Positions 10,088-17,940 of a stretch of DNA of 64,000 nt are shown here, in pieces (position 1 is the first letter of the stretch; the number at the start of each line of letters is the position of its first letter). A model generated the notes under the pieces. It was not told the DNA's origin. It ran no database searches and was given only the letters and a program-made list of their open reading frames with translations. Both the position numbers and the translations under genes were made by a program. The stretch covers positions 2,542,001-2,606,000 of the forward strand of contig NC_060017.1 of NCBI RefSeq assembly GCF_021134715.1. Reading direction: 5' to 3'. This stretch comes from Daphnia pulex. Taxonomy: Eukaryota; Arthropoda; Branchiopoda; Diplostraca; Daphniidae.

Positions 10088-11064
10088 ATGGCAAAAGTAG
10101 GTGATCGTGTTCTATTTAGAACTGTTACTGTGTTAACAGTTATGCTGCCACTCTTTGGCTTTATTGTATGTGTAGCTTGGTCTTTAATTTTTGACTTCAA
10201 AAGTTCAACTGCTACCCATTGTGGAGTAAGTAATTGATATTTTTTGTTGCTTTCCACTTAATTTTGCTCATCGTTGTGTATGTTTTGTACATAGGTGCAC
10301 AATTACCTGCCATCAGTATCAGCTGCAATTGGGGACTATCTCCCTCAAAGATATATTTGGAGATTTGTTATAGCATTACATACAATTCCCAGGATCCAGA
10401 TAGCCTTTGTTTACTATGCATACTTCATGTCTATTCTTGCCAAATGGCATGAGAATTCTGTGTTATTGAACTGCATATTGAATCTAGTTGAAATCTTGTC
10501 TCTCTTTGGTCTCACTTTCATATCCTCCACTGACAATTACAGTAAGTAGTATAGACAGTAGAAGTTGACTTTTGTAACTTATTTGAATTTTATAATTTTA
10601 AATGTTACATTTTATTTTTGTTTTACAGCTATCCACAAATTTTTTTTTATCACATTCCTCCTTACTTCGACATTTTACATGGCTTTATCAATCTGTCTTC
10701 TGGGACATCGGATAACGGCCCCCAACGCGTTAGAAGTCAAATCTGGTCGATATAAAAAACGCTTGTTTGTTACAACGCTTCTTGCTGTTTTTGGAGCCGT
10801 ATATTTTTTTGCTCGTCATAACAACTACTGTGAACCAATGAGTAAGTAATATCCTCTAACCAAATTAACCAGATTGAGAGGCACTTGTGTAAACATTAAC
10901 AAAAATTTGATTATTTCTATCTAGTGTACACATGGTTTGCCTTGTGTGAGTATCTGGTTATTCTCTGTAATATGGCATTCCACATGACAGCATATTGGGA
11001 CTTCCCGCATCGAGAATGGAGCCTGCGGCCATCACCTGACGTTCGCCAACAATTTCGAGTTTGA
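10088..11064 (+). CDS. PGAP2: Post-GPI attachment to proteins factor 2 (PGAP2/FRAG1 family)
   Basis: PGAP2 is a Golgi multi-pass membrane protein needed for fatty-acid remodelling of GPI anchors. The start ATG at 10088 has a good context (ACCATGG). Four exons are separated by short introns: about 10088-10225, 10295-10541, 10629-10840 and 10923-11064. The protein of about 245 residues matches usual family length. It shows several hydrophobic segments, for example MLPLFGFIVCVAWSLIF near the N-terminus. The family signature follows: HNYLPSVSAAIGDYLPQRYI, then WRFVIALHTIPRI, KWHENSVLLNC, TSTFYMALSICLLGHR and AFHMTAYWDFPHREW. The C-terminus QFRV is short. I see no anomalies. Confidence 0.94.
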
Positions 11065-11267
11065 CATCCTGCAACACTGGATTTTTCTCCCGCCCTTTTC
11101 ACACTCCCCCTAGCACAACTTACATATGTAAAGTGATTGACTACCTTCAACTCCCATACTGTGAAACACTCGATTGAACGAAGCCAATACATCTGGCCCC
11201 TCGTCAACGCACATGGAGGCCATTTTAATTATCCCATTAATCAATTCAGTTTAGATTGAACACAATC

Positions 11268-14200
11268 ATGGGCAGAATTTTGAAGTTTTTTAAGCGATTG
11301 TATTGCAGGTCTTCGAGTAGCACGTGTTTTTGCAGATACGGTAAGTCAATCTTACAAATTATATTGTGAATAGATTGTACTAGTTCGATTTATATTGACA
11401 GATAACTTGAAAGATGAGCAGTCTCAGGTCTTCAAATTACCAAACGGCGATTCCATCGTAACTAGATAATCTATATGTTTATTCGTTAAACTTGACATCG
11501 CCATTTGATTCATAACTTTAAACTGCAGGTTATTTATGGATATGAAAGAAGTTACATGAGTTCTTTTATAATTGTGATGGTATCATTATTTACATTTTTT
11601 ACTGCCTTGCTTATTGCAAGTATTCGCCCTGGAGGATTGACGCCATGGTTTTACAGACGTTCAGCTTTATCTCGAGCAACGAAAGTCATGTTGTCACCAA
11701 AATCATTTGTTAATGTTCATCACGACAGTAATGGTCGCCGATGGTTCCTTTGGCGACACCACCGTTTTACTTGGTGTGCCCAGTCTGGTAAATTTAAACG
11801 TATGCGATGTGTGGATGAAATAGGACTTCGGTTTTCCGACATTCATGGACTAGGCAATGGACTTGATCCCACTAATCATCGTTTAAGGTATACCATGGCA
11901 ATTTACAATATTTAGACCTAATGCTAATTTTAAATGTTATTTTTTTGTAGGCAAGATAGCTATGGAAGCAACGTCACAGATGTTGCTCAACCCAGTTTCA
12001 TTTATCTGTTTGCCTTTGCGTGGATAAAACCTTTCCGCCTATATCAAGTAATGGCTATTACTATCTGGATCATTCAAAAGTACTACATCTATGCCGGTCT
12101 TATTGGAATAGCTGTCATTGCTGAAACGATGTCGAGTATTATCCTCAAATATCAGGTGGTGTTTTCTGATTTCAATACTTTTTAACTATCGTATTGACAG
12201 TTAATTTTTTGTAGCACCAACGTCGATTACATCAAATGTCGCTTTTTAATTGTGAAGTAACCGTACTTGGTCCTGGACATGACAGGCGCATCATAATGTC
12301 TGATGATCTAGTGCCAGGATCGGTAATTCAAATAACGCTTAAAGACAACATTGTAATGCCGTGTGATGCCGTAATTTTATCTGGTAGCTGTGTCGCTCGT
12401 GAATCAGGTACCAAAAACAAAAACAGTATGTAAAGTAAAGTTCTGATCGTTATTCAAAATTGCAGATGCAGCTAAACCAAAGCACAAGTATCAGCTTCCC
12501 AAGTCGCGAACACAAGTATACAACCCACAAAGCCATCGTCAGCACACCCTACTCAGAGGATCTTCGCTTGTCTTACATACTGAAAAAGTAAATTGGCGTA
12601 TTGTAGCTTTGCTTCAGAAATTCCTATAGCTTTGTTCCGATAGGTAATTGCTCTGGTTATTCGAACTGGTTGGAGTACGGAAAACGGTGCTGCCCTTGCA
12701 GCCAAACTGGACGCTGTCAGTCGCCCATTGATTTTTGATCGCCACTGTGACCGTCTGTTTTTATTTCTCGCGTTCGCTGGGATATGCGCTGCTACTTATG
12801 GATTCTACATCAGAGTAAGGAAATCAACGATAATGTATGCCTATATTCTAATCTTAAAGAATAACCTTGTGTTTTTCGTGTATTTTAGTACTCATTTCTT
12901 GATGTGCTTGGGCTCATTCCTGAAGGAATGAGTTTTCTCTTCATCTGTCTTCCACCGCTGTTTTCTCCAGCGCTGTTTGTGACCAGTCTCTGCTCATTTG
13001 TCCGTCTTTATCAGAATGGATTTCGTTTTAATTCTTTTGATGAACCAAGTTCAGTTTTAAATCACACAGGTGCTACCGACACCGTTTGTTTGCTAGAGGT
13101 AATATATTTTCGAGAGCAATTATTTATACTATTTTATTCTTTATGGGATGTCGATTTGTAGAACGTAGTTATGCGAAATGTAGATGCCGCAATATTGAAA
13201 GTTTCGTCAACAAGGTATACAATATGTAGAAACAACATTGACAATAAGAATTTTATAAATCAATTAATTAATTATTTGTAGATACGATGAGTGGGCACGT
13301 GATCCGCAGCTCACATTATGTATGGCTAGTTGCGTCACCCAACATACATTAGATGACTTAAAGGTATACTATTTTTACCATTTGGCATCTGAACGATTTT
13401 TTATTTTGAAATTTGTGTTTAGATGTTTTCAAATTCTGCTTGGCAGACTGTTGCTGGACAAAACCATCACAACGTGCAATCAGTCAGCAACGAACATGAA
13501 ATCTATCGCATAACTAAAATCTACGCTGATGAAACACACTCTTCCCTACCGTTAATTCTAGTCAGAGCCGACCCAGTTGAATCAGTTAATGCTGTGCCGT
13601 GGTACTTTCTCCGAGGATCCTATTCAGATGTCGCGGCATTCGCTGAAGAGTTTACAGGTAAATAAACCGCATCTAATAGCGTATAAAGATTTGCCTCTTT
13701 ATAGTTCGCCATCGTTAGATCACAACAAAGAGGATCAAGCGCAAATGGTGGCATTTGCTGGACGACCACTGACGGAATCAGAGAAATCGTCGACTCTAGA
13801 TCCAGATTTAAATCTTCTACTACGCAAGTTTCATCTTTTGGGCGTTGCTTCAGTCGAGTACAAAGTCTCAAAGGAAACTTGCGCTGTTGTTTCTGAACTT
13901 CGATCGGCCAGCATTCGAACCTTGATAATTTCAAGTAAATCACAAGTACACGACGATAATTTGCGTAAAATTAAATTCTACATCCTTTCAGATCGAGAAC
14001 TGGAAGAAGCCGTCCATCTAGCCCGTAGTTCTGGAATCATCTTCAACAAAGAACCTGTGGCTAAGATAGAAATTCCTTCGATAGAAGAATTAAATCCTCC
14101 CTCGCTGAGTGTCATCGATCTTCCCGAAACTGGTATGAATGGTATGAATTGGGACATCTTTTATTGTAAACATAACAGCTACTGTTTAATCAGGTTCTGG

Positions 14201-15442
14201 AGCTAATCTAGTAGAAATCGGCATTCAACGTCAGTCTCACGTTGTTTTAACCGGCGATATGCTCGACTCTTTGCTAGAATCATTTCCAGAAATGATTGAT
14301 CAGATTATTGGTCGAGTAACTGTTTTTGCCTCTGCCAATGCAGCTCAAACGAACTGTTTTCTTGAGAAATTGGATGGACTCAATCGTACAATACGTTAGT
14401 TTTTTTAATTATTTTAATCTATGGTCAAAACTATAGTACGATAACATTTTCCATTTGATTAGTTGTTTGCAAAGATGATGAAGACTACTGCTTCTCAGTA
14501 CCTCTAACATGCTTGACCTTAGCGCCTCATGATAAACGCCAGGTACTACATCGTGACTTGTGCAGCAATCAGTCCATCAACAGCATCAGAGATTTATTGG
14601 GAGAGAGTCGAGCATCGCTTGCGAGATCCCTTGGAATCAGCAAACTCATGGTTTGCTATGCGGCTGCCCGGTTGACCTCTTCTCTTCTGCTTTACGATAA
14701 TCCATCTCCTGCAATTCAGACGCTTTTCATCGACCTAGTTTTAGTAATGACCCCTGCGATGCTCTTTGGTTGTACACAACCGAATAATCAACCCCTTTCT
14801 AAAAAAGTACCATCTGAATCGATCGCCCGTCCGAAAGAATTGCTCTCCATGTTGTTTCAACTCTTACTTATTGTAGTCACTCAATACTTTGCTGTCATAA
14901 TGGCCGAACACCAGCCATGGTTTGAAAGAACTGTGCAAAAAACAAACTGGACCGATGATTCCTTTACTTTGTCGGACGAAAACTACGCAGTTTACTCTTT
15001 ATCGCTCTTTCAGTATTTAAACCTGTTTATTCTTTTCTCTTCCGGAGCTCCTCATCTTCGTAGAATCTGGACTAATCTAGGGCTTACATTCTATCTTCTT
15101 ACGTTAGCCATCTTTTGCTCTGTCATTGTTCTAGAACCATCTGAACAACTTAAAATGTTTATGGGGGTGAAAACCCCGCCCGTGTTCGACTTCCGTCTGG
15201 CACTTTTCTCTTTGGCCGTCATTTACATGATAACATCCTTGGGCATTCAATGCCTGATTGATTACTGTTCTCTTCCCAGCTGCTTATCTAGGAACTCATC
15301 TCGTGGTTCGGCATATATGGGAACATTGCAGAATGTCAACGTCAACGTTTTATATCGACCTTCTACCTTAATCACACAGCAGCAAAACTCCACTAACGAG
15401 AAAATTTCCCAACCCACTACCTTGAACCTACCCATTTTTTAA
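11268..15442 (+). CDS. P5B-type ATPase homologue (ATP13A2/3-like) lacking catalytic motifs
   Basis: Fourteen exons can be joined: 11268-11340, 11402-11457, 11530-11888, 11951-12154, 12215-12406, 12466-12589, 12646-12814, 12889-13099, 13162-13214, 13282-13363, 13424-13658, about 13726-14131, 14193-14395 and 14462-15442. They encode about 1,115 residues, near normal P5B length. The N-terminus has the P5B signature IYGYERSYMSSF before a membrane segment. Ten or so hydrophobic segments are visible, including a C-terminal cluster. Known family members are late-endosomal or lysosomal polyamine exporters. Here the phosphorylation motif DKTGT is replaced within CLLENVVMRNVD, the TGES loop is absent after SGSCVARES, KGAPE reads LRGSYSD, the first TGD loop reads ISSKSQ, and GDGAND is replaced by CKDDEDY. 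Neighbouring positions such as CMASC and DDLKMF stay conserved. ATP-driven transport is therefore unlikely. It may be a pseudoenzyme or an early pseudogene. One frame break near 13659 needs either an intron or a frameshift. Confidence 0.85.
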
Positions 15443-15814
15443 ATGTATAGCATCAAAGATCGATCTTTCTATTTATGTGTGATATTTATCGATTCATATG
15501 TTTTAAATAATAAATTATTAGACGAAGCTGGGCGCTTTCTCACGATTAGGCGTAGTCATGCTCGAGTAATGAAGCCACTAAAGGTGACATTTTGCGTGTG
15601 AGTAGGACAATCGTGAGCGCGGACATTTTTATCGAACTATTAAGGTAAACCATTACAGGAGCCAACGAAGGCTTTATCTGTCCGCGATGCTTGTGACTAT
15701 GATAAGCACTTGTTCGACGAAGAAGACGAAATTGGGACAATGTCGTACTCTGTTAAACAGTACCAAATTCAAATTTAATATGCGCAATCGCCTATGGAGA
15801 CAATGTACTAACAA
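15443..15814. other. Intergenic space between convergent genes
   Basis: This is the 3' flank of the P5B homologue (+) and the ionotropic receptor (-). An AATAAA-like signal at about 15506-15514 (aaataataaatt) could end the plus-strand transcript. I see no gene in it. Confidence 0.5.
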
Positions 15815-17940
15815 TCATTTGGTATAAAATAATTCATACAGAATACCTCGAATATCCTTGTCAGTTAAAAGCATTCGATCAATCTCCTCTGTTAATTTCT
15901 CGATTTCCAATTCCAGCTGATAGGTATTTGCATTCGAAATTTTCTGATTGGGGACCACTGGTTTGCAGACGGCAGATACGGGAGAAACTGCAGCCGTATT
16001 CGTTGTCTTCTTACGCCACGATTTGCAATACTTTGGGATCCTCTCCCAAATAAAGGTAACGGTAGCGGTAGATAATCCAATTAAGGTGATACAAAATAGT
16101 CCGAGGAAGTCGCCAAGCTGCATGGCTCTTGACGTATAACCTAGGATATGGATAGGGCATAGTATACTCATGAGTCACATGACATGAATAAGTTATATAC
16201 CATTGCCTATGGAACACGGGTTTTTGCCAGTAAAACTAGCCCGTCGTGAAAACTCTAGAATTCCTGACTGATCAATTAACCTTATTCTATAATATGAGTT
16301 ATCGCAAAATAATTAATTTTTATCATTCGTATTATTTCAAAACAGGTAGAATGGTCATTACGCTTGATTGAAAATTGGAGTGAGTGACGAGTTCTTAGCA
16401 AAGGCTAGCCCGTATTCTACAGTTAAGTAACTCAGTCTCTTGTCAGTTATCAAGAAGGAGCATTCATGCGTTCCATTATTAGCTTGGTTGAGACGATAAT
16501 TCACCAACATTACTTCCAGAAGCATTTCATATGGACCGAACCAAATGTAACCTAAAGATACAAAATAAAAAGCGTTTATATTTATACGTTTACATAAAAA
16601 AATTTTAATATTGCCTCTTTTTGTCAGGTTTAGCGCAGCGTGAATGGAACTCACTAGATTTCCTCGACCAGTTTTTAGATGTTGACTCAGCAGATCGAAA
16701 TCAGTCGCTCCCGTGTGATTTGGCTGAAATGTGTAATGCACAAGTGATTGCGAATCTTGAATGAACTTAGACTATTTTAACAATCAAACTTTGATAAATT
16801 CTTGATTGTGACTCGAAATCTTAGGCATTAGCTTATCGCTTAAAGTAAGCCATTTCGAATCCTTGTATGCCGGCCAAGACAGCTCTCGAGGATGTTGAAG
16901 TGATCGCTCTCGGTAAGGACGAGCCAAGGAAGCGGTCAAATTTGCCGTGTAGAAGGTTGTTAAAAGAAGACCAACTATCCACCAAGTGGCCATCAAAACC
17001 CTCTGTGAATCTGTATGTACATATTTAAAATTAGAAATATTTTAACAGCGTGAATAATCAGTAAAATTTTTACGAATAGAGATGCGAAGTTTATGATCCT
17101 GCTTTAACCTGATATAGAAAAATTTTACCGATTATTACTAATGCTGATTTTCTAATATCATGATGCCAAAGATTGTGTTAATTAGTTTGGTTAACTTACA
17201 GTGAAACCACGACAAAAAGAACAAAGTCGCTTAGTCTTCCGCGGAAATAATTTGCTGCTTGAGGATGGAACTTTAAATGGAGTCGGTATATGATGAACAT
17301 GACTGGGATCATGCCAACAATTGATAGAGCCACCAACAACCAAACCTGTCATCAGTTTCAACATAAGTATGTTTTACAGGTTTATTTAAACATCTGTATA
17401 CTTATAATACTTCGATTTCAAATGGAGATAAAAGTGCGGTAAGCGAATTCAAGCGAGATGGCTGTTTTTGTAGTGTAACCCATTCGTCCTGTCCGAGTGG
17501 AATTGACAGATCAACAGCATCTCGAAAGTGAGGTAAAAATAGAACACGTTCTGCTATTACATCAATCTCCTAAATAGAAAAGCTCAGTAATCGCGTAATT
17601 TATTTCTTTTTAAAAAATAAGTCGGATAAGGAAATGCACTTTTCTCTCCAGTAATCCAATTAAACCACTCCAGCTTCCATTTTCTTGGCGGATACCGATC
17701 CCGCTAGCTTTAGGTAAAGAGATCAATTGGTAGGTGAAATTCAACTGGGACTGAAGTAAGTTGATAATTTTTAGCACTTTTACGGTTTGATCAGTCGCTC
17801 CATAATAAGGATCAGTCAACTGTATTTCAATTAAAGGTTGACAGAATATCGCAATTTCATGATAAGAAATGTAATCATACCATAGAAGACTCAGTGATAC
17901 CCACTCTAAGAGTTTGCCCTTCGAGGTTGTTTTCGATCAT
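15815..17940 (-). CDS. Ionotropic receptor (IR family, glutamate-receptor-like channel)
   Basis: Arthropod IRs are variant glutamate receptors used for chemosensation, acting as ligand-gated cation channels in sensory neurons. Reading on the minus strand, the first ligand-binding half has TDPYYGATDQTVKVLKIINL and ENGSWSGLIGLLERK, then HFRDAVDLSIPLGQDEW. Next come the first channel helix (VWLLVALSIVGMIPVMFIIY) and a pore region with WWIVGLLLTTFYTANLTA, the counterpart of the SYTANLAAF gate. The second ligand-binding half has RLSYLTVEYGLAFAKNSS. The last helix is LGDFLGLFCITLIGL, followed by a basic and coiled cytosolic tail ending ELFYTK. One intron, donor near 16364, is needed to join IFNQ to IRLIDQSGILEF. 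There is no large amino-terminal domain, as usual for divergent IRs. I find no signal peptide, so a first exon upstream of 17940 is probably missing from this model. Confidence 0.88.

Follow-up and report, generated by a model that had tools for sequence, protein, structure and literature searches.

What can remain of a P-type ATPase once the motifs for pumping have gone? The question is raised by a gene at positions 11268-15442 of the plus strand in a stretch of the Daphnia pulex genome (NCBI RefSeq assembly GCF_021134715.1, contig NC_060017.1, positions 2,542,001 to 2,606,000). We call this whole stretch of 64,000 nucleotides the window, and feature positions below are counted from its first letter. 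The original prediction, made from the sequence alone, was that the gene encodes a P5B-type ATPase homologue that has lost all of its catalytic motifs and yet is still selected for. As described below, the gene probably does encode a full-length P5B (ATP13A-type) pseudo-ATPase under selection.

When the exons are joined by frame, they form a single complete gene of 1098 codons with no internal stops. All 14 introns have GT-AG borders, and they are 56-74 nucleotides long. The start, stop and strand had been predicted exactly, but the exon number had not, as we count 15 exons instead of 14. One intron is easily overlooked, namely intron 12 (13935-13991), which has only 57 nucleotides and no stop in its frame. 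With this intron spliced out, the TGDN loop aligns without gaps with those of active P5Bs, and its column and phase are identical to those of an intron in three intact P5B genes of the same genome (on contigs 4, 5 and 6, and referred to as C4, C5 and C6).

Compared with human ATP13A2, all five catalytic motifs are replaced, as had been predicted, and the replacements are the same in four alignments. Exons 5-7 (12215-12814, that is 12215-12407, 12466-12587 and 12644-12814) encode the actuator (A) domain and the next segment; here the TGES loop has become -DAA, and a three-residue gap spans its Thr and the two preceding residues. Exon 8 (12889-13098) encodes the fourth transmembrane segment (TM4), in which PPALP has become PPLFS, and then the first two positions of the phosphorylation site (L and E), the last three of which (N, V and V) are in exon 9 (13162-13214), so that DKTGT reads LENVV. 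Exons 10-12 (13282-13934, that is 13282-13363, 13423-13657 and 13719-13934) encode a shortened nucleotide-binding (N) domain of 151 residues, as against 190-229 in five active proteins, as well as the beginning of the second half of the phosphorylation (P) domain; KGSPE has become RGSYS in this part, and the core motifs CMASC and DLKMF are retained. The change of TGDN to SNRE lies in exons 12 and 13 (13719-14132, exon 13 being 13992-14132), where intron 12 interrupts the motif at the very same point as an intron does in C4, C5 and C6. Exon 15 (14463-15442) contains KDDEDY in place of GDGAND, followed by the region that aligns with TM5-TM10 and by the C-terminal tail. The remaining exons are exons 1 and 2 (11268-11340 and 11402-11457), exon 3 (11529-11887, see below), exon 4 (11951-12155) and exon 14 (14194-14394). 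Of the five motifs, nothing is left but three residues, G and S in KGSPE and the first D in GDGAND. Three further residues are lost as well, namely Phe in FPFSS, Arg in YRVVALA and Lys in QKTEL. A P-type ATPase is not expected to carry out ATP-driven cycling without these motifs, and, judged by its sequence, the window protein would not be expected to do so either.

Could wrong exons or a faulty assembly be masking a normal pump? The exon number that was off by one is a reminder that gene modeling by eye is fallible. However, DKTG, TGES, KG[AS]PE, TGDN and GDG[ACT]ND are absent from all six frames of 10901-16500 (a single TGET at 15978 is outside the gene). Because introns can split a motif, we also scanned 15,063 GT-AG junctions in 11200-15500 and obtained no match to the catalytic motifs, whereas such motifs were recovered when parts of the intact loci C4 and C6 were scanned in the same way (seven and five matches, respectively). 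The alternative exon encoding DKTGT, which the original prediction had named as grounds for its own rejection, is therefore not present in the genomic DNA of the locus, nor is an exon with any of the other motifs. Furthermore, several of the replaced sites are at exon borders that match those of the active paralogues. An alignment artefact was also considered and rejected, as the replacements were identical, and the bias in what is retained similar, in three further alignments. At the level of the genomic DNA of the locus, the possibility of a disguised normal pump is refuted, and we would give it almost no credence.

The D. pulex genome has other genes that could do the pumping. In the searched assembly (133,188,837 bases in 13 contigs), P5-ATPase domains above the cut-off are present in all four candidates, which are located on contigs 4, 5, 6 and 8 (the last referred to as C8). 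These four P5B genes keep DKTGT, TGES, KG[SA]PE, TGDN and GDG[AC]ND, and the model of a P5A gene on contig 7 also shows catalytic motifs. Thus, the suggestion to look for a second, intact P5B gene led to at least four of them. The paralogue models were corrected by eye; those of C4 and C5 are partial at the N-terminus, and that of C8 is uncertain in its C-terminal extension (a shorter C8 was used in the alignment). The C8 gene (L020, at about 13.10 Mb) has the variants GDGCND and PPMLP and has lost some TM5-6 positions; its first model was extended by a proline-rich C-terminal stretch, perhaps through a mis-join. Most protostomes have a single P5B isoform, as stated in a supplementary-figure legend (PMC5837089), whereas D. 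pulex has at least four that are intact in addition to the catalytically dead one. Among the own-genome matches listed, which consist of the gene itself, 3' fragments and distant paralogues, there is no full-length sister copy.

The descent of the window gene is indicated by several observations. The best match in the PDB is human ATP13A2 (209.5 bits over the stretches 113-438 and 596-1051), and the phmmer E value of 6.3e-61 means that the homology is not due to chance. The P5B proteins of the 7op entries score up to 143.6 bits, and P5A proteins score 60.6 bits or less. Nine of the 14 introns agree exactly in column and phase with introns of intact own-genome P5B genes (eight with C4 and C5, five with C6 and two with C8), as against a mean of 0.16 matches and a maximum of three in 20,000 draws of random intron placement. 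For example, intron 8 has a column and phase common to C6 and C8, and intron 5 is at the homologous place in C4, C5 and C6. The shared introns therefore imply descent from a P5B gene, most simply by duplication at the DNA level, and they disfavor retrocopying. In a tree with the own-genome P5A as outgroup, the window gene falls among the P5Bs, although its exact placement is weak (grouping with C4 and C5, support 54/64). Its branch has 2.33 substitutions per site (LG+G4, 790 columns), as compared to 0.17-1.18 for the terminal branches of active P5Bs. By homology over the A, P and membrane domains together with the shared introns, the gene is a member of the P-type ATPase superfamily by descent, and the PDB scores and the tree place it in subfamily P5B rather than P5A.

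Identity of the window protein to active relatives is 20-25%, whereas the active proteins are 34-69% identical among themselves. Pfam scores are below the curated cut-offs, both for E1-E2_ATPase (E 5.8e-6, 26.4 bits versus 28.1) and for P5-ATPase (PF12409, 15.1 bits versus 22.7). The latter match is to the N-terminal domain in exon 3, where the GYERS signature (near the N-terminus) and a strongly hydrophobic stretch are present and may belong to a membrane-dipping N-terminal domain without Ma/Mb, as in P5Bs. PPALP in TM4 is given as the defining P5B motif (PMC10654040); it is not found in the window gene, as noted above, and the active C6 has PPAMP. The window protein has eight hydropathy peaks, as compared to 8-10 in five active P5Bs (the C4 and C5 models being partial at the N-terminus). 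Together with CMASC and DLKMF, these observations bear out the predicted retention of the N-terminal GY.RS signature, the core positions and the membrane segments. An AlphaFold2 model of exon 15 alone (mean pLDDT 42.8, pTM 0.29) was too low in confidence for use.

Is this protein still selected for, or is it a relic? The open frame is the first piece of evidence. When the C5 coding sequence (1023 codons) was allowed to drift to 30% identity without selection in 200 simulated runs, it acquired a mean of 37 stops and a minimum of 22; the window gene has none. Thus, two properties of a pseudoenzyme were found, namely loss of the catalytic residues and a frame that is open far past neutral expectation.

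The second piece of evidence is that the losses are uneven. The window gene keeps 68 of the 194 columns that are invariant in five active P5Bs. The values are 25/47 for the A domain, 4/8 for TM1-2, 6/16 for TM3-4, 5/13 for TM5-6 and 8/14 for TM7-10, as against 2/13 for the DKTGT half of the P domain, 9/35 for the N domain and 9/48 for the second half of the P domain. In sum, the A domain and membrane segments keep 48 of 98 and the P and N domains 20 of 96 (p 4.5e-5), with similar results in the three further alignments. The most divergent active protein, C8, has no such bias (98/155 versus 96/135, counted on positions invariant in the other four active proteins). A further comparison was restricted to columns in which none of the five active proteins has the residue of the window gene. 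The correlation of hydropathy with the active proteins there is r 0.51 in the second P half and 0.48 in TM5-6, and it is weaker in the A domain (0.25), TM3-4 (0.26) and TM7-10 (0.30); it is not significant in TM1-2 (0.28, p 0.085) and is lacking in the N domain (0.07) and the DKTGT half of the P domain (-0.03).

A natural control is provided by the 3' end of the gene, which has been duplicated. The end and its downstream flank (15149-16751, plus strand) have a copy with 92.8% identity about 2 Mb away on the same contig (L026 2782-4414, contig C1, at about 570 kb). In addition, a piece of about 300 base pairs (15129-15436) has five matches within a repeated stretch of contig C10, at successive distances of about 39, 80, 19.4 and 19.4 kb. 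These fragments should be free of selection because the gene start is missing and because the frame is either shifted, by an 8-base gap that the four aligned C10 copies share, or interrupted by a stop in the C1 copy. Four of the five C10 copies were aligned, and changes were polarized with one of them, L022. In the strict, well-aligned region (15169-15424), the stem to the window gene has two nonsynonymous and five synonymous changes, as compared to a neutral expectation of 73% nonsynonymous (p 0.017). The fragments have eight and two (four and one in the C1 copy, and the same in C10), or nine and two if the C10 site 15156, outside the strict region, is counted. With all sites unfiltered and one "multi" site left out, the fragments have 27 nonsynonymous and six synonymous changes and the stem three and five (p 0.022). 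This comparison of the duplicated tail gives weak support to selection.

Several observations weigh against selection or limit what can be made of it. The fragments differ from the stem with a p of only 0.058 in the strict region, the comparison there rests on 17 changes, and the stem is not separable from an ancestor common to the fragments. The C1 copy differs from the window by 11-14% per 150-base bin in the coding end (where the ends are poorly aligned), and mostly by 1-5% in the flank; the coding end is thus more divergent than most of the flank, which is at odds with a single neutral clock of uniform rate. Nor has the membrane part simply been preserved, given the low values for TM3-4 and TM5-6 and the loss of PPALP. 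Finally, the substitutions are not clearly conservative, as the BLOSUM means are within about 1.9 standard deviations of shuffles.

A rival explanation would be that the gene died recently, in other words, that it long encoded a fast-evolving protein, is now unexpressed and has yet to receive a disabling mutation. The segmental duplication that includes its 3' end is a sign of an unstable place, and the branch is very long. However, 1098 codons without a stop, GT-AG borders at all 14 introns and a stem-branch tail with more synonymous change than expected under neutrality would all be at odds with such a death, which we regard as improbable. Even then, the protein would have been kept for a long time without catalysis. 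Because of the open frame, the uneven loss and the duplicated-tail control, the gene does not look like a neutrally drifting relic, at least for most of its history. The prediction that it is still selected for is therefore supported by the open frame at such low identity and by the biased retention, and only weakly by the duplicated fragment.

What might a P5B without catalysis do? We suggest that duplication of a P5B gene at the DNA level gave rise to the window gene, and that the residues for ATP binding, phosphorylation and dephosphorylation were then lost while at least four P5B genes, intact by sequence, would have kept the pump function. Constraint would have been stronger on the A domain and on much of the membrane part than on the P and N domains, which would make a non-pumping membrane protein the most likely product. 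Such a protein could be a scaffold or partner at an endolysosomal or other membrane, held there by the unit of N-terminal and A domains and by the helices, and it might tune the trafficking or activity of other proteins, possibly including the intact P5Bs. A PI(3,5)P2-mediated scaffolding function of ATP13A2 itself has reportedly been described (by Demirsoy in 2017, to go by the title). The N-terminal domain of active P5Bs has links with both the A domain and lipid (PMC8233418). Moreover, the catalytically dead ATP13A2 mutant D508N still reaches late endo-/lysosomes (PMC5837089), and therefore catalysis is not needed for targeting there. A lipid-anchored scaffold or partner is favored because of these three reports and the retention of the A domain and membrane part. 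Against it, the protection that ATP13A2 gives human cells from metals and rotenone needs catalysis (PMC4814700). We put forward the scaffold or partner as the kind of function only tentatively, at slightly below even chances. The broader proposal, a free-standing P5B pseudo-pump whose catalytically emptied architecture has become a membrane signaling or scaffold protein beside at least four active polyamine pumps, may be as right as wrong.

A special case of this explanation would be a dominant-negative or heteromeric regulator that acts on an intact P5B pump by occupying its partners, lipids or sites. At least four intact P5Bs are available as targets, and some lipid-site mutants of ATP13A2 have been suggested to be dominant-negative (PMC4814700). 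However, D508N, which is catalytically dead and has intact lipid sites 2 and 3, did not show this effect (PMC4814700), and the parts of the literature examined describe no P5B dimer. Such a regulator would seem rather unlikely.

The original prediction had also mentioned a polyamine sensor, to which a passive conduit for polyamines or cations through the old transport site can be added. Four residues are reported to contact spermine directly in a Ypk9-type protein (PMC8233418); when they are mapped to human numbering by spacing (only the equivalence of Asp962 is given in that source), two of the four, Tyr935 and Asp962, are kept in the window protein. The other two have been replaced, Asp458 by Ser and Asp955 by Ala, and with PPALP also gone the idea of a sensor is weakened. 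We consider a sensor or conduit to have little chance of being correct, and the non-pumping scaffold or partner remains the explanation that we favor.

The neighborhood can be described briefly. Upstream is a Frag1/DRAM/Sfk1-family gene (about 10088-11064, plus strand), whose stop is about 200 base pairs before the ATG of the pseudo-ATPase gene; a control region common to the two genes is possible. Downstream, at 16784-16996 on the other strand, is part of a gene for a ligand-gated ion channel (with an E value of 5.3e-6 for Pfam Lig_chan, below the cut-off).

Among the papers listed in searches of the open-access literature we found no free-standing P5B pseudo-ATPase, which is not proof that none is in print, and the accessible portions of PMC10654040 and PMC10763278 yielded nothing on P-type pseudo-ATPases. 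Compared with ATP13A2 and the invertebrate P5B ATPases, which transport polyamines, the window gene has the same domain order, nine introns of the own-genome P5Bs, a GY.RS-like signature, the A domain, much of the membrane part and the positions of Asp962 and Tyr935. It differs in the loss of the phosphorylation, dephosphorylation and nucleotide motifs and of PPALP, and in its shorter N domain. Mammalian ATP13A5 is similar in being a P5B paralogue with negligible autophosphorylation in an assay (PMC5837089); however, its expression was not reproducible for the authors, and a loss of motifs is not stated in the portion of that paper available. Caenorhabditis elegans CATP-1 is similar in another way. 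Part of its action is reportedly independent of pumping (PMC3793975, PMC11631496), which is evidence that the role of a P-type ATPase need not be limited to transport, although another of its effects does need pumping (PMC11631496). CATP-1 differs from the window protein in that it is an alpha type IIC pump and keeps DK[S/T]GT. In Plasmodium GC-beta, a guanylate cyclase is joined to a P4-ATPase domain that is degenerate (PMC6592433); the window gene, in contrast, belongs to P5B and is free-standing.

In conclusion, if it is expressed, the D. pulex gene would be a natural separation-of-function experiment on what a P5B does without pumping, and it would bear on the scaffolding role that is reportedly claimed for ATP13A2. 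The known P-type ATPase parts with degenerate catalytic sites would also gain a member that is full-length and free-standing.

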